Assembly (NCBI GenBank): GCA_037833965.1
Contig: AP031358.1
Location: 12,966,001 to 13,030,000, forward strand
Direction of reading: 5' to 3'
DNA from: Marchantia polymorpha subsp. ruderalis
Taxonomy: Eukaryota; Streptophyta; Marchantiopsida; Marchantiales; Marchantiaceae
Length of the DNA stretch: 64,000 nt
The notes below the pieces were generated by a model. That model ran no database searches and was not told the origin of the DNA. It worked only from the letters and a program-made list of their open reading frames with translations. A program made the translations under genes and the position numbers. Positions 1 through 33,236 of this stretch are shown here, one piece after another; the first letter of the stretch is position 1; every line of letters starts with the position of its first letter.

Positions 1-119
1 AGTGTTTGACTGACAAGTGCTGATGAGCTTCAAACGGGAGAAGGAAGAGGCCGCATTGAGGAAGGAGCGCGAGGAGGAAGCGACCTGATTCTTCCTACCT
101 TCCCGACTCTTCTAATCAG

Positions 120-401
120 ACGTATTGGGGAAGGGTTAGGAGCATAAGGAACACTGTCAACACCACCAAGCTCATCCTGCCGCTGAAGTCATTCATGTGC
201 CCTCTGACGAAGGAGCCAATGGTGGATCCGGTCAGTCTAGTAACAGGCTCATGCTTCGAGCGGGCATCGATAACAGCGTGGTTCGCAGAAGGAAACACGA
301 TCGATATGAGAACCAAACTCATATCGAAATGGGGCGTGGAGAAAGGTTATTTTTGGGTTGAATTTCTTTTCCAATTTCGAATTTTGAATCTCGAAGAAGA
401 A
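120..401 (+). CDS. Partial U-box domain exon (E3 ubiquitin ligase-type)
   Basis: The frame reads SFMCPLTKEPMVDPVSL..TGSCFER..ITAWF at about 189-296, which matches the first half of a U-box (C-P-x-T-K-x-x-M-x-D-P-V, then G-x-x-x-E-R-x-x-I-x-x-W-F), as in plant PUB proteins. U-boxes recruit E2 enzymes for ubiquitin transfer. The second half of the domain is missing and is replaced by unrelated sequence rich in K, F and E. A pyrimidine-rich acceptor ending at 119 and a GTGAGA donor at 402 would delimit a 94-codon exon, phase 0 at both ends. No 5' exon is in the window; a short coiled-coil-like KREKEEA reading at 23-88 lies in another frame and ends in a stop. The exon could be a domain fragment or the 5' part of a chimera with the proteasome exons downstream. 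The exon boundaries are inferred. Confidence 0.5.
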
Positions 402-576
402 GTGAGATTGAAAATTCAAATTCAAAATTCAAAACTTTCAAGCTCCAGTTTTCGCAGTAGATACCCATTGAATTTCAATTCCTTGATAAAATAGTCGATT
501 ATCTGACGTGAAGAATCTCGGCTTGCTTACACTGGAAAGAACCTGTCTGTAAGACAATATCGGATTTTCTTGGCAG

Positions 577-2305
577 GCTATTGCTGGGTTGGCTGCCGAC
601 GGCAGGCAAATTGTTACTTGTGCAAGAGCAGAAGCTGGAAATTACTTGGGGTTTGCTCCTTTACTGTCTTTGTTGTTTACTGTCACAGCTAAACACTGTC
701 TAACGCTAATTACAGTTTCTTGACCAGTTGATTGCTTTTATATAGCCGCACAAAGTTCTTCCGGGTGTCGATGTAGTACGTCCGTTTCTATCTGTAGGTG
801 TACTTGTGAATTCTGAACTTCGGGTTTCGCGGACGTTGTTTGCAGCTTTTACGGTGAAGAAATCCCCACCAAAGAGCTTTGCGACAGAGTCGCTTACTAC
901 GTGCATCTATGCACCCTTTACTGGTGGCTCCGGTCAGTATATTTGCGTTTGCTCCTAAGGAGCGCAGCTAGGAAGCACCTTTTTTGTTTCTTGCGGTTCC
1001 TGTTCGTTTCGCAAGCATGAGCAAACGCATTTTAATTTCTCTGAAATCTCAACTTTGCTCTGAGGCAATAACACCCCCGATGACGTATTGCACGGTTCAG
1101 TTCTAAGAGTGCTTCGTTTGTTCAGGCCATATGGTTCGGCCGCCATACTAGGTGGTTATGATCGGGATGGTCCTCAGTTGTACATGATTGAGACCTCAGG
1201 TGTTGCTTATGTGAGTCTCATACACTTGTGAATGCTGTTTCTATAATCTTTTACGAATGTCTTATCTTTCGTGTCATCGTGAGATTTGATAAGATATTTC
1301 ATTATTTGCCACTAACCGGAAATGCTCATTTCCGTTTTCTGAACGTATCTGTTCACCCTCTCTGCATGCAGCGGTACTTTGGTGCTGCAGTAGGAAAAGG
1401 GAGTGCCAAAACGTGAGTATCTCACGTCTTCATATATGCAACTAAGTATATTTCAATTGCAAATAGAGTTGTTCTCTCGATGGTGTCTGGGTTACTTGAA
1501 AAGCTGTTTATTGTTTAGCAGACACCTCTGATGTACGATGCATTGGAAATTTGCATATGAAGACTTAGTTTTCTATAATCCATGTTAGTGAATAATGCCT
1601 CCGTAAATATGTCCTGCAGAGAGATTGAAAAGCTAAAGTTGTCCCAAATGACATGTCGAGAGGGTGTCATTGCTGTTGCAAAGATGTAAGTACACTGCCC
1701 AAGACGTGGATTGCATTGCCTTTGCTTTAGCTTTGTACTCTCTTGGTGAGATGTCAGTGAGTATTAATAGGGTTGTGGTTACTCGCTGTATAACCCACTC
1801 TAGAGGAGACCAATATTTGAAGAATGTTGTACTTTTTCTATCTTCGTGTCTTATGTCGGTGATTGCCACCAGGTAGTATCCAATTTCTCTGTAAAACCCT
1901 ATTCACCCTTGTGCGAGGCGAGAGAAATAAAGAATAAGCTTATTTTGTTGCAGTATTTACAATGTACACGATGAAGCTAAGGACAAAGCTTTTGAGCTAG
2001 AAATGAGCTGGATCTGCGATGAATCAAAGCGTGAGCACCAACGGGTATGTGAATCTACTCCAGTCGAACTTAGAGGATATGAGCGCAAAAAATCAGTCTG
2101 CTGATAGGACTGACTTACTAGATAGACTTGATTAACGGAGTTCTGAATGTAACCAGACGACAGTGTTATGGATTTATAGTTTGCATGTTAAATATCCTCC
2201 TTTTATAATCGATGTTCTCTGCTGCAGGTCCCTGCTGATCTTCTTGCGGAAGCCAAATGGGGAATGTGGGTGGTGTTGAGAAGAAGAATATTTCGCGGCT
2301 CCTGA
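577..2305 (+). pseudogene. PAG1: 5'-truncated 20S proteasome subunit alpha type-3 copy, seven exons
   Basis: Exons 577-650, 846-932, 1126-1210, 1372-1412, 1620-1685, 1954-2044 and 2228-2305 join into 174 in-frame codons including the stop. Every intron has GT..AG ends and matching phase. The translation follows plant PAG1: AGLAADGRQIV, YVHLCTLYWWLRP, GGYDRDGPQLYMIE, RYFGAA, EIEKL..MTCREGV, KIIY.., HDEAKDKAFELEMSWICDES. The subunit belongs to the alpha ring of the 20S core. The first ~70 residues (N-terminal gate/H0 helix and the FQIEYA region) are absent. Two residues are lost near GKGSAKT, and the last exon ends in WVVLRRR.. rather than the usual acidic alanine-rich tail. The reading frame is intact but both ends are altered, so a duplicated pseudogene or the 3' part of a fusion is likelier than a working subunit. 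Confidence 0.85.
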
Positions 2306-5300
2306 TTCAGACCAGAGGGAAATATGGTCCTGACGACCAGTGGATAGCTAATTACGTCTGGGGTCTGCACTCTGATTCGAAATAAGATGGTGGCATCCAA
2401 TTGTGAGTTACTCTTAGTTTGTGTGCTGACTGATATCGAATGCATAGCAAGTGGTAGGATTATGTCGACATGGTGACCCGAGCATTCCAAAGATATGACG
2501 CTTACCTTCCCATAGGTAGAAGCTGCTCTCAGAGGGTGCCGTTTCTTATGTACCATTTCGTTGACATCCTTATCCTCGGCATTTTCAGGAGTTGCCATCA
2601 CTGCCCTCCTCTGTGGAGTTGTCCAGCACAAGATGTAACTGTATCAGAGGCCACGTTCTCATTATTAATGCATTTTGTATAGCAAACTAGGAATTAAATG
2701 TAAGTTTTAATCTCACCAGTACAAAGCGATTGTCCATTTGAAATGTAGATGCCTGACGCAGTTGCTCAGTTCTGTTGCAATATCGAAGTTTCCTCATAGA
2801 GTGAATATGTAATTCGTAATTCTTAATATGTAATGAACTTAATTCTGGTGTTCATTTCGGGTCTGTATGATTGGGTCGTTTTTCTCCTCCCTAATTTTTC
2901 TACTTTGCCGGATACCGAGTCGAGATAGGAGGTGCCACAGCATTACGATCTTCGGATTTATTGTAATTGGAATGGCATCAGGGACAGTGGGATAGTTCAG
3001 ATATCTGAGAGATGCGTCAGGAGATGACCCTGGCATATGTTCTACTGAGTTAACACTTGAGAGTGTGCAGTCGGCATCGTTGTGCCTGCAGTTTCAGCCG
3101 TACCTCGAGCTCAGCGTCAGATGCACAATAAAGAAAAATTATACAAAAACGAAAGGAAGGAGTAGGTGGAGATTGGTCATTGATCACAGCCACAATCAGA
3201 TCGTGTTCACGGGTGCTCATACTGTGACGTTGATCCATACGTACTGAACGACTTGTTTTCTGAAACGAGTTCCGTGTAGGGAAAATTTTACCATCCAGAG
3301 CGGATATGTGGAGCCAGTAAACGGAGCTGATGCCCTATACACTAGCTCATGTTGGGCGGACTGAGCGAGACTTAGACTCTCATCAGCCGGTGTCTTGGGG
3401 TTGTGAGGCCCACCAGGAATGCCCTCCCACCCTTGCATCTGTGAACTCACGTCGCCGGGAACCCTACCGAATCGTAGGCGCTGATGCAGCGAAAGACTGA
3501 ACAAGACGTAATTTCTCATACCTTAAGATACAATCGTAGTACTTCAATTATTGGCCAGAACGATGCGGACAGTGAGGCTTCGCCCATGACGTACGCGCCA
3601 AATCCATTTACTAACCAAGAATAAGTGGTGAGTGAACTGTGGATATATTATCGAGTGCTCCGTCGTTGTCAGTAGCACGGTTGACGTCTCGATGTTTCGA
3701 TTCATACACCTTAAGTTAAGCCTAGTTTTGAAGTGGATGGATGATTCACCATGTGCATGCCCTGCAAAAGATCTATTTCTTGTTCTTCGCTTCCAGAAAA
3801 CCTAGTGTCTGATAGGGAGGCACTTTCAAGCTACATTTGGGAGCAACCAACACGTTCTAATTTCAGTTCAATCAAACAAACGATCGTGAATAATTGTGTC
3901 CGGTTAACGAGAGTAGGTTCGTGCTCAACAGAGTCCAGCATTGGGTTTTCAAAACTTTACACATACCCATGGATGTGTCAACTGTATCCACCTGTGGTGA
4001 CTTTTCCATACCCTTATCCATCCATGACACCTTGTCCATATATTCAACTCATAACCCCACCACCTTTTGGTTACACTTACTCCGAAGGCTAAGTGTAAGT
4101 CATATCCATCCATTATCCACCTATATATCGTAGCCCCACACATTTACCCATGGGTATGCATGGGTATGGGTACCCATTGCAGTACTCTGGTGCTCAAGTG
4201 ATGGTGACAAGAACCCGTCTGGCACACTGAGAGGTCACTATTGAATGGAAGCGCCGCAGCTTGTGAAACACCAATGGGCCTTGTCTTCTCGTGTCAGTTT
4301 GAATGTATGTGATAAACGCCACATCACCAAATGGGATTGCATATATCTATGGTGCATACTCTTGGAGAATATAATGTGGATAGGCACAAGACCATTCGTC
4401 TGGAGAATTGAAAGGAGGACCGCCTGGGGGTGTCCTCTCAGATAATGAGGGGCACTCAGTCAAGCAGTGTTTTAATATAACGCTGTACTTGGGGCCCGAT
4501 GTCTACTCCGCTTGGCATCACAAAGCTCCGAACCCAAACATGCCCACGAATCGATCCGTATGAAGGTCAAGTTCCATCGAATCCAGTACACCTAGCAGCG
4601 CAGTTTGACAGTACGAGTACTCTTGGAAGCTTACAGATTGCGCAGAATGTGGAGTTTCTAGTGAGGCTGAGATGTAGAGTCTCCCAAACCGAGTCATTAC
4701 CACATCAGTCGAATCCCAGTCTGATAGATTATGTCGAGAATCGACGCAATCAGTTGGAACATGCATATTCGAAATCTGGCATGTCGGTTCTTGGTCTCGC
4801 CCAATCCGGTCAGCCAGCAATCGGATATTGGAACCATAGGCAGGAAGAAATCTTCCTCGCAGGTTTGACTGGAATACTGTGATCACAAGAGTGCAAGTAT
4901 TTACTGGTTACACTTGCACATCTGAATAATGTAGATGAGCATTGGAATGTCGTCGACTTCCCGGGTCGTCCACATCGGGCTCATTGACTTCAACTGCCCT
5001 CCTTTATGGCGTCTGCTCCGTCGCTGTAGAATATCTACACATACCACCGAATGTTGACCGAATCCTTTTCGAAAGCCAGTGCTGGAAGTTCCCACGAAAG
5101 TTGTGCATATGCACAGGCCACAAAGTTGATCCTGTCCGGACGAGTCTTTTCTATATCCGTATGCACTGCATGGTACCTGCTGCTGGGAGGTTCTCACGGG
5201 ATCACCGTGTAGCCAAGTTCCAATCGCTCTCTCATAAGATCTGAACACAGAAGAGATGGACGACGGACCATGTAGAGCCTGGAGGGCATCCTTCCACATC

Positions 5301-6450
5301 AAGCAACAGCTCAGCTCAAAGCAAGGTAGAACTTATGAGACAGCTTGGTGATTCAATCAGATGGGATATTACCAAGTCTTGAAGCTCAGGAAAGGTTCTG
5401 CAATTGCACATAAATAAACCTCTCCTTTCCACAAACAACCAAGCAGCTGTCTGCCGCCAGTAGCTTCCAGTGATGTGATCTGAGCGTCCTACATTGGGGC
5501 ATGGCAGTCAGTGTGAGTCGCCATTCCAGTTGAAAATTGTGAGGTGGCCACGGGATTTTTGCAGAACCTTTCCTGTGCACTCCCTATCATACAGAGCAGC
5601 TGAATTGCGATCGTGCCAGATGAGATCTGATGCTCACCAAAAACGGCATCCCTGACTGCCTGCTCTACCCACGGAGGCGCGAAGAGTCTGCAGTCATTGG
5701 TCCGGGGCATGGGCACGTAAACACCGAGACCTGGATCAGATTAAAGTTCTTACAGCCCATTCTGGGTCACATCGTTGCAGAGAACTGCTGCTCGTGTACG
5801 CTTATAGTGAGACTGCAAGGCCTTGAGCTCTGCTTGTCGGTGGTGGCGGTGCACATATGCTCGATTCGCACTTTCGTGATCATGCTTCGGGCTTCTGTTT
5901 AATCAGATGTTCGGATCCGGGAGTAGAAATGAGAAAAAAATGAAGTTGTAAGAAGCTGGTGCACGGATTGAGGCAATAAAGATCTCGAAAATCGAGAACC
6001 GGTGCATGTCATGTGCGGAGAAATCGACATTAAAGTCAGAGCTATGGTGGCTGACGAGAACACGAAGGCAGCCAGCCAGCTAACAGAAGAGTGGCTTCAC
6101 GAATTCCCAAATCACAGCTTCTACCGAACATCCTCTGGAGATGACCTCATCATTCTCATAACGAGAACGGTCACACACACACGGGGTCATTCCTCCATCT
6201 CGCTGCCTTGTTGCAGTGCAGAAATGGCATGGTACAGACGAAGCTCATACGTGCGAGGTCTGAGCATCGTGTACACGTCTATGAGTATTAAAAGTCGTGA
6301 AGATCAGAGACGAGTGAGTAAGAAAGCAAGCCATACACGGCAGCCATCGGAGCTTCCAATGCGAATTGGAGCGATGTACAGATCCCCGCTGAGCTGCGAC
6401 TTGAGAAGTCTGATGTGGAAACTAAGAGGCTCAGCCGATTTTGGAGGTGC
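2306..6450. other. No recognisable gene
   Basis: Only short ORFs on both strands (up to 142 codons), none with a recognised domain, signal peptide or consistent splice structure. A minus-strand ORF at 2203-2631 overlaps the last PAG1 exon and is probably fortuitous. Around 4000-4185 there is a run of imperfect CCAT/TATCC and GGGTATGGGTACCC-like words with local inverted symmetry, of the sort left by degenerate repeats. Opposed ORFs at 4499-4882 (+) and 4518-4886 (-) cover the same bases and have no family match. Confidence 0.5.
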
Positions 6451-6455
6451 TCAGA

Positions 6456-6540
6456 TATGGAGTAGACTTTGACAGAATCCGAGCATAAAATTCATGGAGT
6501 AGACTGTGAGCGAAGGATATGGAGTAGACTTTGAGCGAAT
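6456..6540. repeat. Short imperfect direct repeats
   Basis: The word ATGGAGTAGACT(T/G)TGA occurs three times at about 6456, 6494 and 6519, followed twice by GCGAA or CAGAATCC-like tails. This is a small local duplication with no coding content that I can support. Confidence 0.6.
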
Positions 6541-6773
6541 CCAGCGCCTCTCTCTGCAGCAGTCTTGCTTGGTTCTTATCCGAAGGCCCTTCACTCACTG
6601 ATGACAAGCTCGATAGACCGTCTGCTGATTCCACTTTCTTACTCTCAAGGAAATTTAGATAGTTTGCCGGTTCTCCGATCGCTTTGTTTGAGAGCAGCAG
6701 CTGTCGACGCAATCCTTCTTTTAGAGATTTGACAGAGGTGCCTTGAATACCAAGCGAGGCTGGTGAGCTCCTT

Positions 6774-6799
6774 AAGAAGAAGAAGAAGAAGAAGAAGAC
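6774..6799. repeat. (AAG)n microsatellite
   Basis: About eight consecutive AAG triplets. Confidence 0.9.
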
Positions 6800-9700
6800 G
6801 GCTAACTGACGTGAGAGCTCGAGCAGCTCAGGTGTCATACTGACATTGGTCGGAAAATATCATGATTGCTTCGGCAGCTGGTCCAAACCCCGACAACTTT
6901 ACCATTCAAGCTGTCATTCGCTGTGCTGTACCTCCTGGCGAGAAGAAAACTTGCGGAGGTTGAGCCTCAGGGTTCCTAATACGGATGTCTGGATTCTGGG
7001 AAATTCAGTCCATTCACGTCTGTACATGGCGTGAATTTGAAATACAGGTGCACGTGGTCGGTTCAGAGAGCTTTCAAATCCCCCATTTTGGACATGATAT
7101 AACCAGGCACTCGGAATTTTGTTAAGTATCCAAGCCACTAGAAACAAGTTCATCGCAGAAACGTAAGATATGGATTGCTTGGACGGTACGTCAGACTTCG
7201 GACATGGCAGCTTCTATCACGGCTTCTCTGTTATCATTTGAAACCAGATCTGCGGGCAAATGGATGAAAATGGTTCTTGTCCAGCATCACATGTCTCTTG
7301 CGCTGGGCACTTTGGCTTTGTTTCAGCAGCTTGAGAAATAACATGTAATCCTCCCGATTTCGCCCAACTCGTTTCTGACGATGAATGCATGTGAGAGCTC
7401 GTGGTGTCCAGGACTAGCAGCCAAAACAGATGGAGTACTCTCGAGGTGGGGTGAGGCTAGCGGCGCAGTGCGGAGAGAGATGTGCACCATACACAACCTT
7501 GTTGCGTTGTAAATGGCTCAGTAAGTTAAAATACCTGATGTCAAGTACTGACGGCTGCTGATCGAAGAGTTACTTTTGCTGATAAGCAAAACTAACATTG
7601 GCGTTAATGGACACAGCTCACATCCCATAGACTATGACACTTTCCTGCCCTCCAGACCTTATTGCAAGAACCCTGGTCTTCGTAAGCAGGCCGGGCGACC
7701 TTGCCTTCCGACTTCCCGATTTGGCATCCCATTCAGCTGAAACTTCTTGCGGCTCTGAGTGGCAAGTTGTCCACTGCAAGAACTTCACAATCCAAAATGC
7801 ACAAGAAATGGCGCACGATGACATCACGCCGTTCTCTCAACTTGCTGTATAAGATTCGACGAGGACTCTGCAAAGTATGACAGGTAGGAATGGAAGACAT
7901 TCTGTTGGGTTTGACCTTCAGAGACTTGGGTTCCTTGCCCAGGTCTCTGGAAAGTGCATGTGGAAAATTGCACGGCAGGTCTACTGAACGTCCAGCAGCA
8001 GCCTATATTGAATCGGCCGTCAACCCCACGTGAGCAATTGGGGTCGCAGAATGCAAGGCTGAGGATTCAATCCTTCAGAGTTGCAACGAATGTTTCAGAG
8101 TCGTTTAGCTGCATGGGAGGCTCCACGCTTCTCTGAAAGCTCCAGCCGATACATGCACACAAGGCACAGAATTCATCCTTCTCATCATACTAGATGAAAT
8201 TGGAGACTGGAGATCGTGACCTGGAGAGCCACGCTGACTTTGTAACCCTTATTACTTCGTGACAACCTTCAAGTCTATGAGCCAATTGGGCATGGTCTGT
8301 CAAGGTATGGCGAGTTGTAGACCTAACGTAGATCCTGAGATTTCGTGCCCGACACATCACAGTTCTTGGCGTGTATCTCAGATCAACATGGCAGGGTGAT
8401 ATCCTCCACTAGGGGACGACTATCAAGTCTTACTGCATGCCGTTGCTGTCGAATATCATCCTCCTGTACTCAAGCCCAGTATCTATCTCGCAGCTCTATC
8501 TCCTGCTCTTCAACCATCTGGAGAAGTCTTATGGTACATACCGTTCTCCAGGAACTTCAGCCAAGCGCAGTTCCTGATCGTTTAGGTGCCAATCAGTACA
8601 GGACTAGCTGGAGGTCAAATCATTGTGTGAAGAAAAACGGCGCAATGTTCAGAGCAATCCACGAGCGCATGAGTCTTCCTGAGAAACGTCTCATATCAAT
8701 GTCAGGTCAGGCCTGGACAATTTGTCAGCTGTCCAGCCTCGGACATGCTGTTCACTCTCAATTCGTCGTATTGGAAGGGAGTTGACGTCAGCGCAGTGAT
8801 CTTTATGGTATACTTTACATTCAGTGCCGACTCATTGGCAACAATTACACTCCTCGACGTTTCAAGAGCCAGACGCAACAGGCGTAAGAATATAAGTTTG
8901 TTACACACCTTCCGACATACTAAGCTTCAAATCAAATTCATGCAGCTTAGGATCAGCATACGAACGTTAAAGCTCAATTAAGGCACATGTCATGGCTTAA
9001 TTACAGGCACATGTCATGCAGACCAAAAGGGCCTTTGAAGTTGACTTGGCAATGATCAAAAAAGGATGTGCATTAAATTCAATCGTACACGAGAAGAAAA
9101 TTCATCATAGCGTCAATCAGTTTGAACTACGCATACGTCAAATGATTGAGTTTCCCAAAGCTCAGGTTAGAGGATCTGCTTCACCATGTCGACTGAACTC
9201 TTAAGAAAATATTCTGATCGTATGAAGTTCTGGTTAAAGACTGCTGAAGCTTTCCGGTCTGAAGACATGCGTTCTCTATACTCAATGACATACAGTCTCC
9301 AACAACAGCGAGACAAGTGGATACTGGCCCCACTTTGAATGAAAAGAAATTTCTCTAGATGGAGACCAAGTCTTTTACAGAATAAACGGGACCTTCTTGG
9401 TCAGACCGGATTTGACCACCAAAGAGCTTGGGTTGAGTCTTTCCTGAGCAAGCGTCCGGAGACATGTGTGTCACGAAAAATGAGACAAAACTTTCACTGA
9501 GTTGGAGAACTTGGAAGACTCACATATCTAGCGATTTCAGTACAGGCACTATATTTCAGATTATAGGGCCACTATTCCCCGACTAGCATGCTTCCAAGAT
9601 GTTTCAATCTGAGGACCTTAAAATGACCTTAAAAGTCGTCGACACGTTTTTTAATGGGGCGCAGTAATGCGGCTGATTGTCAGCACTTCATATACGCGTA

Positions 9701-11365
9701 TAGTCAGCAGGGAAGATTCTCCGGACACATTCCGATGATTTCACTTTGAAGAATTTCATCCCAGCCAGAAGCTTAGATTTTGTCCGAGCAGTTCACATAC
9801 GAAGGACCTGTGGGATAAAAGTAGTAGCAGCTGCTCACGAATTAAGCTTTGACTTCTTCGTTCGCTGATAAGTCTGAAACGTTCTATCCTCAATATTACA
9901 CGAGGCACACAACATTAGAGATGGCAGTCGCCTGTTGCCGTTCTGGTTCTGGAAGTCCAGTCATTGCGGGATGTCTACCAGATTCTTTATTCTCCATACC
10001 GGATTCGCGCGAATTCGCACCGTCAAGAGGCAGCTGTGGTCCACTTTGTGTTGGCTTATGAATGGATCAACTTAGTTCAGGAGTTATAATGTGGACTTGA
10101 TTATTCAGATTGAACTGATTCAGCTTTAAGAGAACGAGTCAACTTCAACTGCAAATGCAGTCAGGCAGTTCTTGTATGTACATTCATGGGACTATTAGAT
10201 GTAAGAACATCATTCCAAGAAATGGGTGGAGGGAGCAGATATGGTTCATGGAATCAGTGGAATGTAATGAAGTAAGATCAGGGGACCCAAAAGGTCATTT
10301 GTCCAAAATATATAGGGACTTTGGCCGTGAAGGCGAGCTCCATGATGAGATAATGATGAGATTGCTTGTCTCTTGATGTGCCCTCACCCAAAGGCGGGTG
10401 CAAAGGCAGCATAGTTCAATCTGAATTTTAGACTATTCACGCACGAATAACGTAAAAAGTTTCTCAATTGAAAGTCACACAATTTTACTACGTCACCTCT
10501 CAAAGAATTGAGCTGGACTAAAATGTCGCTGCCACCTGATTCCCGATTTTTTGCATGAGTTTTCAGAATTTGCAAACCGATAACGCATTCACATGCTTTC
10601 TGTCGTACATGGAGACACATAATTACGTCACACAAGAAGCAGGGACCTTGGCCGGAACGCAGTAAAACCAGATAAAAAGTACTTTGTCAAGAGATCTGAT
10701 GATAAAGTTATCGAAATAATCTCTCTACACTAATCACGGACTCGTCGACTGGAGTATTTCCAGTTCACTTCAAAGACCCACATGAGACTACTGTAAGATG
10801 GCAATCTCATAATCTAGTCCGACAAGGGCACATTTATCTAATAATTGGAAAAGAACATATATGGTCCAAACTTTGGTATACAGGCCTAGCTCAGACGCTT
10901 CAAGTTAGGCAGGCGTGTCCATGCAAGCAATATCTACCACCGCTGAGTACTGCAGAAGCCAGACTCCACGAAGAGTCCCACTTCTGGGTTCGGATTTCCG
11001 AGGCATGGAAGCCCAGATCCAGAGACAATTGATGAGACAATCCAGAGACTTTACTATTTCTCTCAAAACGTATTAGAGATAAGTATCGTTATGTGCGAGG
11101 GTCATAGTAGACTCCGCAAGGTAGAATCCACCGTTGGTCAGTCTGTTCGGATTCCTCCTTTCTAGCACCCTTTCATGATCCTGTTTCGACTTTGTAAGAA
11201 TTATTCTCTCAAGGCGAGCAAGCACCGGTGGTCCACGCTGCGGTCTGTGTCATGAAAAGTGGAAAAAAGTAAATTCTGTCAGCTGTTTCTGCAGAACGAT
11301 CCCGGTTGCTTCGAGGGTTAGAGTAGGAGCGTTCTCGCACGATCTAGAGAACATGAGAGTGAGCC
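6800..11365. other. No recognisable gene
   Basis: ORFs of 60-146 codons occur on both strands (for example 8345-8785 and 9849-10061 on plus) but show no domain, signal peptide or splice-linked continuation. Composition is moderate in GC. The rightmost part is the upstream region of the multicopper oxidase gene. Confidence 0.45.
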
Positions 11366-11374
11366 TTTATAAGG
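11366..11374 (+). promoter_or_regulatory. TATA box of the multicopper oxidase gene
   Basis: TTTATAAGG lies about 125 bp upstream of the start codon at 11500. That is a normal distance for a plant core promoter with a short 5' UTR. Confidence 0.6.
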
Positions 11375-11499
11375 ACATTCGATGAGCTTCTACCTCACTC
11401 AGAGTTGTACACCCTGGAGTACGATTCACATAGACATTGTGAAATCCACGTGGTCAATTCAATTCCAGTTCGACGTGCAGTTCCAAAATCATCACCGTC

Positions 11500-13722
11500 A
11501 TGGGGACGAATCCGAGACGAACCGAGGCTCCAGCTCTCAGATTTAGCCATGCTTCTCATCTGAAGCTTGCCTGTCTTCTCGGGGTGTTGTACTCACTATC
11601 AGTGATTCAGGCTCAGGATGTTCACTCCCGGTGCGGAAACTTGACTCCGTCACCTACTCTGACACCATTCGTGCAGCCACTGCCTATACCTGTGGAAATC
11701 GACATCTCCACAGGGTCTCAGCTGACTTTGGGTGCTTACAAGATTTCCCAGGTACGGATTCTCAGAGTTTTAGCGTGCACTGCTTTATGCCAGAAACCCC
11801 GGGTACAAAACACTCAGCTGAAGTACAACAGTGGAAGGTCCATGCAGCTGAATGGTTCACTTGTACCGGAGGGGATTCCGATAGAGCCAGTTTTATGTTT
11901 GTCAAGTACAGTGAGGCATGCGTTCTCTCTCATCAGAGGATGCATAATCGGAGCTGATTTCCAGATGGGGACATGTTATCAGATGAATACTTTCTGCACG
12001 ACTGCATGCTTGCAAAAGTCGTACAATTCTTGCAAATGAGCGCTGTTACGAAATTCTTAGACTGGCCAATAGTAGTCTGAGATTGCAGCAGAATTCTCGA
12101 GAATCCGAGAATTGAATACCAGTCACGGGTTGCGTGGATTGAGTTTCGTAAATTGATCCGAACAGAATTTAACCCGCGGCTGCTGTGTGCAATTACAGAG
12201 CGTCCATCCAGACCTTCCGAACACGACATTCTACGGATACGGGACGAGTCAAGACACAGCCACATCTCCGGGCCCGACTCTGAACGCCAGGAGGAATGTG
12301 GCCTCGTTCATTCGGTTCGAGAATCACATCACCGACGCGGAGCACATTCTGACCGTGGACAAGACGCTGCACAGAGCGACGCCAGCGAACGGAGGCGTGC
12401 CGATGAGCGTGCACCTGCACGGCGCCGACGCCGAGGGCAAGTTCGACGGGCACCCGGAGGCCTGGTTCACGGCGGCCGGCGACAAGGGCCCGACCTTCAT
12501 CGCCACGAACAACACGTACCCGAACGAGCAGCCGGCGAGCCTTCTCTGGTACCACGACCACACTCTGGGCTACACTCGGCTCAACGTGGTATCCGGGCTG
12601 GCCGGGCTGTACTTCATCCGCGGGGGATCCGGCGAGCCCGGTTCTCTGCCCGAAGGACGGTACGAGATCCCGCTGGTCATCCAGGACAAGCAGTTCTACC
12701 CCAACGGGTCCATCAACTTCCCGGACCTCGGGTCGCCGCTGTCGCCCGCGCACCCGCAGTGGTGCCCGGATTATTTCGGCGACACGATTCTGGTGAACGG
12801 CAAAGCCTGGCCCTTCCTCGACGTGGTCGGGGCCGTGTACCGCTTCCGCATTCTGAACGCGGCCAACGCTCGAGCCTTCACTCTCTCGTTCAGCGACAGC
12901 CGCCTCCAGTTCGTGCAGATCGGCACGGACGGCGGCTACATGTGGGCTCCCCAGCTGCTGCAGAATCTGACCATGGCTCCTGCTTACAGAGTCGACGTCC
13001 TCGTGGACTTCTCAAGCGTTCCCGTCGGGACGACGGTGTATCTGAACAATACTGCTCCGGCCCCGTTTCCTGATGGGGACCCGATCAATAGTCCTCCCAG
13101 CACCAGGCACGTCATGAAATTCAATGTCGTTCAGTCCATACCCGGGTTGCCTGCGCAGAGTGTGGTCATTCCTACTTCCATCGGGTCCGCCCCTAGCACC
13201 GCCGCCTGGATAGACTCGGCGGTGTACAGAAATGTGACCTTGGATGTGGTTCTGCCGCCGGACCTGACGTTTCTGCTGAATAAGAATCACTGGGATGATC
13301 CTGTCACCGAGACGCCGAAGCTTTACACGACCGAGATTTGGGATATCATTCACCTCATTCCGGGCGGCATTCATCCGATCCACATTCATCTCATCAACTT
13401 CCTCGTGTTGCATCAGCAGGCGTTCGATCTGACTCGGTTTAATGGTGGCCTGTGTTCGCTCCTGCTGTCATATCCGGAGTCCCTCAGCTGCTACACTGAG
13501 GCCCCGCAGCCTCCGGACGCCACTCAAGTCGGCTGGAAGGACACCGTGATCGTCTACCCGGGCACGAGACTCAGAATTCTGATGAATTTCGCTCCCAGAG
13601 ACGGCAGCAATTACACGTTCGATCCCACCACGTTCCCCGGTTACGTATGGCACTGTCACAACCTGGACCACGAGGACCATGACATGATGAGGCCGCTCCA
13701 AATTCTGCCTGCAGCATCTTGA
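11500..13722 (+). CDS. Secreted multicopper oxidase, CotA/bilirubin oxidase/LPR1 type
   Basis: Exons 11500-11751 and 12199-13722, with a GT..AG intron in phase 0, give a 591-residue protein. A signal peptide ends near VIQAQ (about residue 39). The copper ligands are all visible: HLHG at about 156-159, WYHDH with HDH at 203-205, HPIHIH at about 476-481, and HCHNLDHEDHDMM at about 569-581 with the T1 Cys and the axial Met. This four-block pattern with HEDHxMM is typical of bacterial CotA, bilirubin oxidases and plant LPR1/LPR2, rather than of plant laccases or ascorbate oxidases. The family oxidises small substrates or metals with four-electron reduction of O2; LPR1 is a ferroxidase in root cell walls. 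The substrate here is unknown. Exon 2 from about 12300 to 13050 is much more GC-rich than its surroundings. A long ORF in another plus-strand frame (12153-13073) is a by-product of that composition. The start is the first ATG after the TATA box. Confidence 0.94.
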
Positions 13723-14283
13723 GTCCACCTTCCGCCTCCAGCATCTAGAAATCGGACCACTTTAGACGTCCATTCTCTCGACATCTGCACATAGCTCACA
13801 ACCATGTTCTGCACCGTCGACAAGTTTGATGGCCTCTAGCTTCAGCCGAATCCTGAGGAAGAATCGAAATGGATGAGAGCCAGGCGCCAAAAGCACGTAA
13901 GAACGCGCTACATTTCACTCTCCTGATCACGCTGACAGGCTCTCGATGAGGTGAAGTCGCATCTTATGTCATCCGAATTCAGGTCAAACTGGGGGCGGCG
14001 GAGGGCCAATTGCTTGCACCCACTTGCTATTAACGTACACAGTGAACTTCGTTCTAGGCCAATGGAGGTGGAGACGTGGGACTTTAGGTCCGAGTTAGTT
14101 ATTCTACCTGTGAGAAAAGGCCTTAGCTGCAGCTAGCCTTTTTTCATCCGACTCGTGCTCGCCATTCTGATGATCATCTGCTGGAAATGTTCCAAACCAG
14201 CTTGTAGCTAGCGCCATCCACCGATTCATATCTCGATAGCTGAAAGTAGGCCAACTTTCGATCCTATTCATCGACGGACACGT

Positions 14284-14485
14284 GTGGTCTTGTGTTGAGA
14301 GACTGGAGTTGGTCTCTCAGATGATGTGTATAGCTTCATCTGAACTTTGACTGCTGTGCTCATCCGTCATACTGGATAGACATTGGTCTTGTGCTGAGCG
14401 ACTGGAATTTGTCGCTCAGATGCATAGCTTCATTTGAAGAACAACTGCTGTGCTCATCTAGCTCACTGGATAGACATTAGCTAGA
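14284..14485 (+). repeat. Tandem ~100-bp repeat with two covarying hairpins in the oxidase 3' UTR
   Basis: Two imperfect units (about 14284-14385 and 14386-14485) share GTCTTGTG, a hairpin, ATAGCTTCAT, GACTGCTGTGCTCATC-like text and ACTGGATAGACATT. Hairpin 1 has stem arms 14295-14303 and 14312-14320. Hairpin 2 has arms 14394-14402 and 14411-14419. Both loops are 8 nt and start TGGA. At one stem position A-T in copy 1 is C-G in copy 2, and the closing T-G of copy 1 is C-G in copy 2. The stem is therefore kept despite base changes. The element lies between the stop codon and an AATAAA signal on the sense strand. Confidence 0.8.
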
Positions 14486-14505
14486 ATGTTCTCCTTGTAT
14501 CTTTA

Positions 14506-14511
14506 AATAAA
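14506..14511 (+). terminator. Likely polyadenylation signal of the oxidase gene
   Basis: The AATAAA hexamer is about 785 bp after the stop codon and just downstream of the twin hairpin. It implies a 3' UTR of about 0.8 kb if used. Confidence 0.45.
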
Positions 14512-14519
14512 CTGCACTT

Positions 14520-16730
14520 GTATCTTAAAAGTACTCATCCGAGTCATGCAGCTGATTTGGATATTCCGATCTCGTGCCTTGTGTGAAATTGAACCGGTGA
14601 TCATGTAGATACCGGTGGCCACTGTCGATAGACAAATCCACGTGATTGTGGCTTACACTGTGGTAATCTTGTCCGTGTAGTATGAATCCAAAAGCGACTG
14701 CATCTTACAAAAGGTATACGTTATCTTTCATAGCATCATATGAACAAAAACAACAAAAGCAAAAAGCAAAAAGCAAAAGCACCAATAGCAGAAGATAGAC
14801 AAATTAGGAACTTTTGATTCAAACTGTGCTTAAGAAGACCAATTGGCACTTTGTGAATCAGGAGAACACTGTACAGCTGGATTTATTGCAGTATGCCAGA
14901 GGTTGATTCGTTCGATTCCCTTATTGAGTGATGTCTCCATGCAGAGGAGAAAGTCGATGCCAAGTTTCAAATCTTCAGGTGAGTTATGTAGAATGTCCCG
15001 AAAATCCAGATCTTGAAAATCAAAATGATAGATGGTCAGTCTGGAGAATATTCAGACTCCAGACTGACTGAAAATTGATATAGGAGAAATTGTACGTTAT
15101 GAGTATGGTTTTGTAATTCCGTTAGAAATAATCTCGGTTGAACAAGGAAGTGTGAACTCAAATCACATAATTTTTCAAACTTCATCATTTACAAATGAGT
15201 AACTTCATTCTGATTGTTCTGGTCAAGTTTTGCAATATTTCGCACATTTGAAAATGGCGTGAATGGTGCTTGAATAATTGCCAAGTGATTCCCAACAAAG
15301 ACCGACAAGAAGCATTGGTAAAATTCTCTAATCCTATTAAAGATGGAGATGTAAGAACTCTCACATGGATTTTTTCGATGATGGAAATATCTATCTAAGA
15401 ATGAGCTTGTTAAACATTGTCCGAATTTTCCATCAATCTATCGTTTAAAGATTTAACGTCTGAAATATAGATTTAAAAAACATTGGTAAACAATATTTTC
15501 TTGAAAGAATCAAGATATCCCGTTCTAACCATTGAACATTGAAAATACCAAACGATGATTTTTCATTGTTTTTGCCATTTGAACCCACAAAATATGACGA
15601 GAGACACACGCTTTATCTTCACGTCCGTGTACTACTTGATACCACGTGATGAAACATGTGGTAACCCTTGCTATTGGAAGAATAATAGACAACTCATTTC
15701 ATCACACAATTAGATCGATAGATATCAGAGTACAATGACTATCAACCCTTGCATCAAAGAAATAAAAAAGAGGAGAGATGACTCTATAACAATCTATAAT
15801 ATTATTCATCATATGATCTGAAAAACAAAATCTCTCCACATTTTCTTTTGGTATATAATGTCAGAATCTCTACATATATATTGAATCAAATCAAGTTGAA
15901 TGATTCTATATATATATATATATATACGATTCAAATCCATCAAACATTCAATGAAAAATATAAACGATATAATCTTATGTAAATAAAAAATGATTGGTAA
16001 TATCAATGATATTCTTGATTCTATCACTCTAATCATTTGTATTCCATCCTAACATACCACAATATACATCCAAAATTAAAAATATCTTCATACAACAAAG
16101 ATGAATATCAAAGAGAGTGGAGATTGGTAATTACTCCACTGTCATTTCAGCGACATGTATATTTTCAAATCATAACTTTACTTTTTTTTTCCTCTCTTTA
16201 TATGAAGATCAATAACCAATGTTAGTCATTATATAATTCAAAAAATTAAATAATATCATCATATTCTTACTATTCTATGAGAGATAATCCATACTCAAGA
16301 AAACAAGTGAATGGATATAATATCATTTTAATACTAAAGAAATAGAGAATAGTTTATTTGAAGATGTAACACAACTCTGAATTTGCAAGATAACTATGAT
16401 TATACTCTCACTTATTATTATTTTATCAACAAATATAAGGAATACATATCTCATCCTCATCATTTATTCTAATCATTATAGATTGATAACATGGCAACAA
16501 ATTCTAACAAACATAGGAATTACTATAGTGTTGCTATCAATTAACAAACAAAAAAACTGATTCAAGTCTAATCTAACAAGAACATGAATTGTTGATGTGT
16601 CACTATCAATTAAAATATTTATTCTCTATCTATCAAACACAAGTATCGCTGACGTGATGACCTTATACGATTAATTATAATTATAGTTCAGAATTAATTA
16701 AATAAATTCATTCATATTTTATTCTTGCAC
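14520..16730. other. AT-rich intergenic DNA
   Basis: AT-rich sequence with no convincing coding region. It includes a short A/AAGC-rich stretch near 14750-14785 and a (TA)n microsatellite at 15908-15926. Small ORFs here are chance openings in AT-rich sequence. Weak, decayed relatives of the 69-bp satellite appear from about 16480. Confidence 0.6.
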
Positions 16731-16736
16731 ATTCAA

Positions 16737-17165
16737 TGTTTATATAACAAGCATGTCAATTTCAACTAAAAAATAAACCGACATGCTCAATCCTTTTCTA
16801 ATAAATACATGGAATGCCGACGAGTCGTTTTCAACTAAAGAATAAACTAACACACTCCAGCATTATCTAACAAGTACATGAAATGCCGACGAGTCGTTTT
16901 CAACTAAAACATAAACTAACACACTCCAACATTATCTAACAAGTACATGAAATGCCGACAAGTCGTTTTCAACTAAAACATAAACTAACACACTCCAACA
17001 TTATCTAACAATTACATGAAATGCCGACGAGTCGTTTTCAACTAAAAAATAAACTAACACACTTCAGCATTATCTAACAATTAGATGAAATGCCGACGTG
17101 TCACTTTCAACTAACAAATAAGCTAATACACTCGATCTTTATTTAACGAGTTTACAGATGGCTAA
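16737..17165. repeat. 69-bp tandem satellite array
   Basis: The phrase TACATG(A/G)AATGCCGACGAG starts at 16806, 16875, 16944 and 17013, with a diverged start (TAGATGAAATGCC) at 17082. The spacing is 69 bp each time. Each unit continues with TCGTTTTCAACTAAA, ATAAACTAACACACTCCA and CATTATCTAACAA. The inner copies are almost identical and the flanking ones are diverged (16737-16805 and 17101-17165), as expected from homogenisation in the centre. No coding content. Confidence 0.92.
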
Positions 17166-24787: not shown

Positions 24788-25012
24788 AGTGCCCAAAGCG
24801 GTGTAGAGACAGCGTAGGTTGCACGCAGACGTGGATAGATCCAAGATTTGCATCGGCTATGAAGTGGTTGTAGATAAAACCAGATATTACAATCATTAGT
24901 GCCCAAAGCGGTGTAGAGATAGCGTAGGTTGCACGCAGACGTGGATAGATCCAAGATTTGCATCGGCTATGAAGTGGTTGTAGATAAAACCAGATATTAC
25001 ATTCATTAGTGC
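24788..25012. repeat. 110-bp tandem duplication
   Basis: The stretch beginning GTGCCCAAAGCGGTGTAGAGA and running through CATCGGCTATGAAGTGG and ACCAGATATTACA occurs twice in tandem, 110 bp apart, with only a few differences (for example GAGACAGCG against GAGATAGCG). Confidence 0.92.
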
Positions 25013-25612
25013 GTGAAAACTTTCAGGCTTCCGGTTGTGAAAAATTCTTGGACTATAAGAATGTACAGGTATTCCATTTTCATTCCAGAGCACAGGACGA
25101 GACCCAAGAGCTTCCGCTCATCGAGATCCCACTCTTCTTACATCATTTCAGTCATTCAACCTAACCGATACAGTGAGACGCAGAGCTGACGCCTCGCTCT
25201 GTCAGTTAGCAGCTCAGGTGGAATCAATCGTCTTCGCCATGAACGGGTCGGCATTTCCACATGGCTCAGGGTTCTCCCAAAACATTTGCATCGGCTATGA
25301 AGTGGTTGTAGATAAAACCAGATATTACAATCATTAGTGCGTGAAAACTTTCAGGCTTCCGGTTGTGAAAAATTCTTGGACTATAAGAATGTACAGGTAT
25401 TCCATTTTCATTCCAGAGCACAGGACGAGACCCAAGATCTTCCGCTCATCGAGATCCCACTCTTCTTACATCATTTCAGTCATTCAACCCAACCGATACA
25501 GTGAGACGCAGAGCTGACGCCTCGCTCTGTCAGTTAGCAGCTCAGGTGGAATCAATCGTCTTCGCCATGAACGGGTCGGCATTTCCACATGGCTCAGGGT
25601 TCTCCCAAAAGC
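24955..25612. repeat. 328-bp tandem duplication
   Basis: The segment from TTTGCATCGGCTATG (about 24957) to GGTTCTCCCAAAA (about 25282) is repeated immediately after it, 328 bp downstream, with very few differences. CATCGGCTATG therefore occurs three times, at 24851, 24961 and 25289. The near-identity points to recent duplication by unequal exchange or replication slippage. Confidence 0.92.
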
Positions 25613-32182: not shown

Positions 32183-33236
32183 CTCCCAGCTTTTGCCAAA
32201 TCTATGTTCACTTTTCAAGCGGACGGTACTGCCTTCAGTGTTGGCATAGAGAGCTCCCTTTCTTCGATTACGAGCATGTTAGTTTAGTACCAACACTGCA
32301 TCAAATCAGGATCTTTCTGAAGAAACTAAGGTTACCTGAGGTTGTGTTAGCTATGTCTACTGAAGGGTGTAACCTATAAATACGAGACTGAAATATGAGG
32401 CTCATGGTAAAAGTGGACCATCAGAAGACATAAGAATTAATTTCAGAAGACATCAATGTTCACGGTGCAAAGAAGCTTTGAGCAGCTACGCAGAAGTCTT
32501 CATGTAATGCTGATTTCTTTCGCATCTTACCAAAGATAACCATATAATCTTTCTCTCCACATAATTATCAATCTTTCGAAGAAAAATATGTATCATCAAG
32601 CGAATAAAGAGATTAACTTATAAGTTTTCGGAAAATATTTACAAAGCCACAGTCCTCGGGTTTCCAGAAACTGCTCTCACCCCGTATCTTCAAGAGCGGG
32701 GCAGCCTGCTTGACAAATGCATCGACGATGAAAGGTTGCGGATTGCTCAAATCATCAAAATATGAAAATTATGAATGAAACGTCTGGGGAGAAGTCAGCG
32801 GCACAATCGATGTTAATGGGGCAGACCTCTTCCAAGCCGCAAATGTGATGTTATCGTCGGTTAGAGGTTATATCTTGTAAGATGCGAAAGAAATCAGCAT
32901 TACATTAACATTATTGCATAGCTGCTCAAAACTTAATACACCGTGAACATTGTTGTCTTGTGAATTTTATGTTTTCTGATAGTCCACTTTTACCATGAGA
33001 CTCATATTTCAATCCTTCAAATTCTTTCTAGCTTACAACCTTGAGTAGCTTATAACCTTCCGAACAACCTAACTAGCTAACACAACGTCAGCTAGTTAGG
33101 TTGTTCGGAAAGGTCTTGAGTGCATGCAGCGTTGGTCCTAAAATAACGAAGAAAGGGAGGGCCCTGCGCATGCCAACATTGAAGGCACTACCGTCCGCTT
33201 GGAAAGCGAACAACGCTGTGGCCAAAAGCTGGGACT
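32183..33236. mobile_element. Foldback-type element with ~360-bp imperfect inverted arms
   Basis: The left arm (about 32183-32541) and the reverse complement of the right arm (about 32866-33236) align almost throughout: CAGCTTTTG, AAGCGGACGGTA, TTGGCAT, CTCATGGTAAAAGTGGAC, ATGTTCACGGTG, and ATGTAATGCTGATTTCTTTC next to the centre. The ~325-bp middle has no ORF. No transposase is present. This is the structure of a foldback or large MITE-like element, or of an inverted duplication that could give hairpin RNA. I could not establish a target-site duplication by eye. Confidence 0.75.
33058..33110. repeat. Perfect 21-bp hairpin inside the right foldback arm
   Basis: Arms 33058-33078 and 33090-33110 are exact complements around an 11-nt loop. 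The left foldback arm has no counterpart, so this hairpin was gained in one arm only. Confidence 0.92.

Follow-up and report, generated by a model that had tools for sequence, protein, structure and literature searches.

Two tandem units behind a multicopper oxidase gene of Marchantia polymorpha subsp. ruderalis, each of which carries a hairpin, stem from one duplication of a stretch of DNA for which no further locus was found in the 241-Mb genome. The feature is genuine, confined to this locus and able to fold; structural selection in it is not shown. We consider it probable that a palindrome was passively duplicated in what is, judged from the sequence, the probable 3' UTR of the oxidase gene, and that the hairpin has no regulatory role and is passively carried along in the message. 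This reading draws on the confinement of the units to a single locus, on neutral simulations that give a comparable outcome in about 1-6% of runs, on a stem that is not spared from change, and on the location of 9/10 clustered changes within inverted repeats shared with the flank. Against it stand the lack of any broken pair among the 23 of the unit structure, the folding z-scores of the single units, and the position next to the sole copy of a gene array with an uninterrupted C-terminus. All positions refer to the window, i.e., the whole 64,000-nt stretch that was analysed (contig AP031358.1, 12,966,001-13,030,000).

Layout of the tandem units

The features under study are listed in Table 1. 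Aligning unit 1 with unit 2 gives 17 substitutions and one 5-nt gap over 100 columns, and TRF reports an array at 14285-14478 with period 94, 2.0 copies and 78% matches. The coordinates, stems, loops and substitutions given in an earlier note on this DNA are confirmed by the alignment, and TRF finds the same array. The placement on the sense strand ahead of AATAAA holds as well: the hairpins lie between the oxidase stop codon (13720-13722) and the AATAAA at 14506. The units start about 560 bp past this stop codon on the sense strand of the oxidase, and 87 nt separate the end of the unit 2 hairpin from AATAAA.

Table 1. Positions of the studied features within the window.
Feature	Position	Strand	Description
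Oxidase first exon, probable	11500 to about 11751	+	Placed by eye
CotA-type multicopper oxidase main exon with C-terminal HCH motif	12199..13722	+	Open frame and family match; exon start placed by eye from splice-site sequence
Right edge of the tandem gene array	13930..13932		All 14 other copies cease to match the window at 13932
Tandem unit 1	14285..14384	+	100 nt; TRF, repeat finding and alignment
Unit 1 hairpin	14295..14320	+	Arms 14295-14303/14312-14320; 8 Watson-Crick pairs and a terminal T-G; 8-nt TGGA loop TGGAGTTG
Unit 1 second stem	14328..14359	+	7 pairs, two of them G-U; 18-nt loop
Tandem unit 2	14384..14478	+	95 nt; junction base 14384 common to both units; TRF, repeat finding and alignment
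Unit 2 hairpin	14394..14419	+	Arms 14394-14402/14411-14419; 9 Watson-Crick pairs; 8-nt TGGA loop TGGAATTT
Unit 2 second stem	14422..14453	+	7 pairs, one of them G-U
Inverted repeat AGAACA/TGTTCT	14438..14492	+	Encloses the TCTAGCT/AGCTAGA repeat; 5' arm has 5/5 bases of one change cluster
Inverted repeat TCTAGCT/AGCTAGA	14457..14485	+	Only with unit 2 plus flank; 5' arm has 4/5 bases of the other cluster
AATAAA, possible polyadenylation signal	14506..14511	+	783 nt past the oxidase stop codon

The main stem comprises nine pair columns. The two units agree in seven of them; one column has a one-sided difference (T14295-G14320 in unit 1, C14394-G14419 in unit 2) and another a two-sided one (A14300-T14315 versus C14399-G14414). 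Main stem, 7-pair second stem and a possible closing stem together form a predicted unit structure of 23 pairs. Four of these vary (one two-sided, three one-sided) and still make standard pairs on the plus strand, and none is broken in either copy. Unguided RNAalifold recovers both main stems along with a slightly different closing region, i.e., 25 pairs with one two-sided change and again none broken. A further hairpin, of the AAAAGGC..GCCTTTTTT type, is located at 14113-14144 in the same oxidase 3' flank.

Predicted folding

The unit 2 hairpin is predicted with pair probabilities of 0.71-1.0 across three plus-strand contexts. In the 202-nt context, the unit 1 hairpin has probabilities, counted from the terminal pair inwards, of 0.02, 0.73 and then 0.97-0.99; the respective values are 0.02, 0.12 and then 0.43-0.61 in the 808-nt flank, which begins at the stop codon and runs beyond AATAAA. 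In three sequence contexts, the T-G pair of copy 1 reaches 0.02-0.04 on the plus strand; that is, the main stem of unit 1 is predicted to be in effect an 8-bp Watson-Crick stem. The change from a T-G wobble to C-G, which the earlier note had counted as compensatory, is thus weak evidence, since the wobble is predicted almost never to form. This leaves one covarying pair in two sequences.

The second stems are predicted with a probability of 0.95 (unit 1) and 0.91-0.94 (unit 2) in the 202-nt context, and of 0.14 and 0.28-0.29, respectively, in the 808-nt flank. On the minus strand they show little or no pairing (0-0.23), while the main hairpins are predicted to fold on both strands.

These values bear on a selected 3' UTR RNA element, i.e., twin hairpins that bind a protein or protect the oxidase message and whose stems are kept by selection. 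We regard such an element as unlikely. The strand preference of the G-U-using second stem in the 202-nt context is in its favour, and so is the unit structure with its one two-sided and three one-sided pairing-keeping changes, unbroken also in the unguided fold. The ability of the main hairpin to fold on either strand argues against it, as does the weaker prediction in the 808-nt flank, where the unit 1 hairpin stays at or below 0.61 and both second stems are low.

Short stem-loops of metazoan 3' UTRs include the histone 3' stem-loop and the iron-responsive element (IRE), the latter of which controls metal genes. The unit hairpins resemble them in being short stem-loops in what is probably an untranslated region. 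The IRE has a bulged C and a CAGUGN loop, and the histone stem-loop a 6-bp stem with a 4-nt loop; unlike both, the unit hairpins combine an 8-nt TGGA loop with an uninterrupted stem of 8-9 bp.

We also compared folding strength across the window. The 200-nt segment at 14284 has a folding z-score of -3.06 and ranks 25th among 636 plus-strand segments (40 shuffles each), a predicted stability that is notable, not extreme. The single units score -2.55 and -2.76, which is better than average. Across the window, hairpins of nine pairs whose 5' arm has at least four G/C are a common feature (31 of 86 rows, at about 20 separate places).

Elsewhere in the window, a strong near-perfect inverted repeat is found at about 33055-33115, with a stem of more than 20 pairs and a fold z-score of -6.7 over 211 nt. 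Beyond its own two arms, the only relative that a genome search gives for this repeat is a weak one at a distance of about 0.7 kb, and there is no Rfam match. It is possibly a small-RNA precursor or a recent inverted duplication.

Substitutions compared with neutral expectation

The stem shows no sign of being protected from change: the units differ at 3/18 sites of the hairpin-1 stem, at 2/8 sites of the octaloop and at 17/95 of all aligned sites. In the whole unit structure, the paired columns number 46 and carry 5 of the 17 substitutions; the other 12 occur in the 49 unpaired columns that are free of gaps.

When 17 random substitutions are simulated, the main hairpin is left fully paired in 8-12% of runs. 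In 1.0-1.6% of runs, the stem is intact and has at least three changes, including a two-sided one, and given at least three stem changes, the stem is fully paired in 2.1-4.4%. Any shared stem of at least 8 bp with a two-sided change is observed in 6.4% and 3.9% of runs for the two real units and in 2.3% for shuffled ancestors; the respective values for at least 9 bp are 2.4%, 1.5% and 0.85% (4000 runs each). All 23 pairs stay intact in 0.1-0.3% of runs, a structure that was preselected for pairing in both copies. A shuffle control of the structure-pair count (256/500) is uninformative with two sequences.

The covariation support thus consists of one two-sided pair in n=2 sequences. The earlier note had read the changes as the signature of selection on RNA structure. 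This does not stand, given that there is one two-sided change in one sequence pair and that neutral runs yield such stems at the per-cent level. The small number of sequences likewise weighs against the selected element.

For comparison, 155,806 bases hold seven tandem arrays of period at least 40, including the hairpin array, and a two-sided change is seen in 0/6 of the others, five of which are more than 90% alike and hence say little. Two further tandem regions lie within the window. TRF finds a 69-bp array with 5.7 copies at 16760-17151, where no stem of at least 6 bp is common to the five aligned copies. At 24788-25610, it reports overlapping 110-bp and 328-bp duplications, which are probably recent because of their 98-99% matches.

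Inverted repeats and template switching

Across 14270-14505 there are five perfect inverted repeats of at least 6 bp within 70 nt, all of which touch sites that differ between the units. The multi-base changes of unit 2 form two clusters, i.e., 14439-14443 and 14459-14461 together with 14463-14464. Nine of these ten bases are part of nested perfect inverted repeats with the flank at 14479-14492 (Table 1). That is, 9/10 cluster bases are what reverse-complement copying of an arm close by would give, as expected from a template switch. In 3000 trials with random letters at the ten cluster sites, both clusters fall into repeats of at least 6 bp in 1.8%, and the observed lengths of 6 and 7 bp are reached in 0.4%; this randomisation is post hoc, i.e., picked after the pattern was noticed.

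An 8-bp inverted repeat that is particular to unit 1 (14317-14324/14336-14343) also touches changed sites, and the direction of change is therefore ambiguous. Judging from the repeats, either unit 2 may have gained its clusters by short template switches that reverse-copied the flank, or unit 1 may have lost them after the duplication separated it from the flank. Copy 1 departs most from copy 2 in its two arms without a counterpart in the flank, an observation that suits the selected element and would fit relaxed constraint too.

For RNA genes in general, PMC8794818 reports that template switching gives rise to compensatory stem changes, and PMC8604942 that it homogenises the arms of inverted repeats in yeast. 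By analogy to these, a template switch could turn A-T into C-G after a single point change, without selection. The likeness to such template-switch mutations (quasi-palindrome correction), as described there, consists of two-sided stem changes and of multi-base clusters in nearby inverted repeats; the difference is that the direction of change is not inferable here from two copies without an outgroup. The pattern once ascribed to selection can hence be produced at the DNA level, going by PMC8794818 in the passages concerned.

We therein see the following course of events for a passively duplicated palindrome. Palindrome-bearing single-copy DNA about 560 bp past the oxidase stop was tandemly duplicated once, as the two units at this one locus show, each copy inherited the palindrome, and RNA from each is consequently predicted to fold into a hairpin. 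The stem would have outlived the 17 substitutions partly by chance. The exchange of A-T for C-G most likely goes back either to two ordinary mutations, or to one mutation together with a template switch in which one arm was the template for the other.

Related genes and related hairpins

The best solved-structure matches of the oxidase are chains of spore coat protein A / CotA laccase (best E 3.7e-101), while NCBIfam equivalog models match it below their cut-offs. By these CotA matches, the upstream gene shows a likeness to CotA-type multicopper oxidases, which according to passages of PMC9168544 include the plant LPR1-like ferroxidases.

Twelve diverged paralogues (L020-L031; 46-66% identical) were examined for a comparable hairpin. 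None was found behind any of them (0/12), neither by a covariance model of the two units (R1) on the loci nor by a scan for 8-pair hairpins over 900 nt past the first in-frame stop. Hairpins of eight pairs are present within 900 nt of the stop behind 3/12 paralogues, none of which resembles the unit hairpins. Run over 18 sources including all 12 paralogues, the model lists only unit 1 of the window and a candidate picked by pattern (L004, see below); unit 2, which shares one base with unit 1, is unlisted in that run and scores 109.6 bits when taken alone. Rfam gives no match at the gathering threshold in the whole window, with a best sub-threshold match of E 0.4 in 13700-14700, and a scan for bacterial-type terminators found none. 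The absence behind 12/12 paralogues and the lack of an Rfam family both count against the selected element, and the control of mRNA stability, localisation or a metal/redox response that had been proposed for the hairpins is not borne out.

The genome search places 15 copies of the oxidase gene on contig C9 (gene copies at C9:12645400-12979719), spaced by 23.4 to 24.5 kb, mostly near 23.7 kb, with the window copy as the last. Window positions 1-13929 align to the previous array unit with 99.2% identity. The hairpin units begin about 350 bp outside the array edge, and 14/15 gene copies are without them. One copy (L006) was compared with the window over 10657-13950: it shows zero differences in 10657-13193, and ten substitutions plus one inserted base near 13602 in 13194-13930, after which its frame misses the HCH motif. 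The 30-base context around this insertion site is the same in 14/14 other copies, and in the search table residues 479-521 are in a different frame from the preceding stretch in 14/14 upstream copies; in two of these, L018 and L019, the frame also shifts at a second place farther upstream. Among the 15 copies, only the window copy reads uninterrupted through the copper-binding HCH motif.

An oxidase fragment (L034, C9:12963796-12967158; about residues 133-264) lies just left of the window and recurs in the array units. Three fragments of about the same residues are located on contig C5, and their spacing of 23,555 bases suggests a related array there. A PMC literature search gave nothing on a tandem array or copy number of multicopper oxidase in Marchantia, nor on liverwort 3' UTR RNA structure.

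Given this arrangement, one might suppose that the twin hairpins form a lineage-specific 3' UTR element, which would control the sole copy of 15 with an uninterrupted copper-binding C-terminus; only that copy would then have retained its native 3' end together with its catalytic site. We judge this quite unlikely. An aid to 3'-end formation, in which the hairpins would compact the region upstream of AATAAA such that any stable fold suffices and the sequence is free to change, is a very doubtful reading. It agrees with the 87-nt distance from the unit 2 hairpin to AATAAA and with the 14 upstream array copies, which are without this flank and contain neither AATAAA nor ATTAAA over the 1050-1460 nt that begin at the HCH codons. 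Yet in 8/12 paralogues one of these two signals follows the stop within 900 nt without such a hairpin, and the new flank of L006 contains different hairpins that are unrelated to these.

That the units are the remnant of a mobile or dispersed repeat is hardly credible: the unit is tandem and palindrome-rich, but a DNA search and a pattern allowing three mismatches (best candidates scored) give no second locus in the genome, and the single other pattern match, on contig C6, is antisense in an ORF without a tie to the oxidase and is equalled by one match of the reversed-pattern control. A dispersed repeat unrelated to the gene, which the earlier note had named as an outcome that would speak against its claim, was thus searched for, and no dispersed copy was found. 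The C6 look-alike (L004, three mismatches) was rejected; it has no link to an oxidase, and its 19.2 bits with the covariance model are those of a sequence chosen from the genome by pattern.

Implications

If the hairpins were functional, they would be a 3' UTR structure without an Rfam match on the message of a metal enzyme. As they stand, the two units provide a compact case in which a single covarying pair between duplicates is not proof of RNA selection, since template switching during replication leaves the same mark. The array of 15 oxidase copies, 14 of which show a disrupted frame and lack the hairpin flank, may be the more useful lead.
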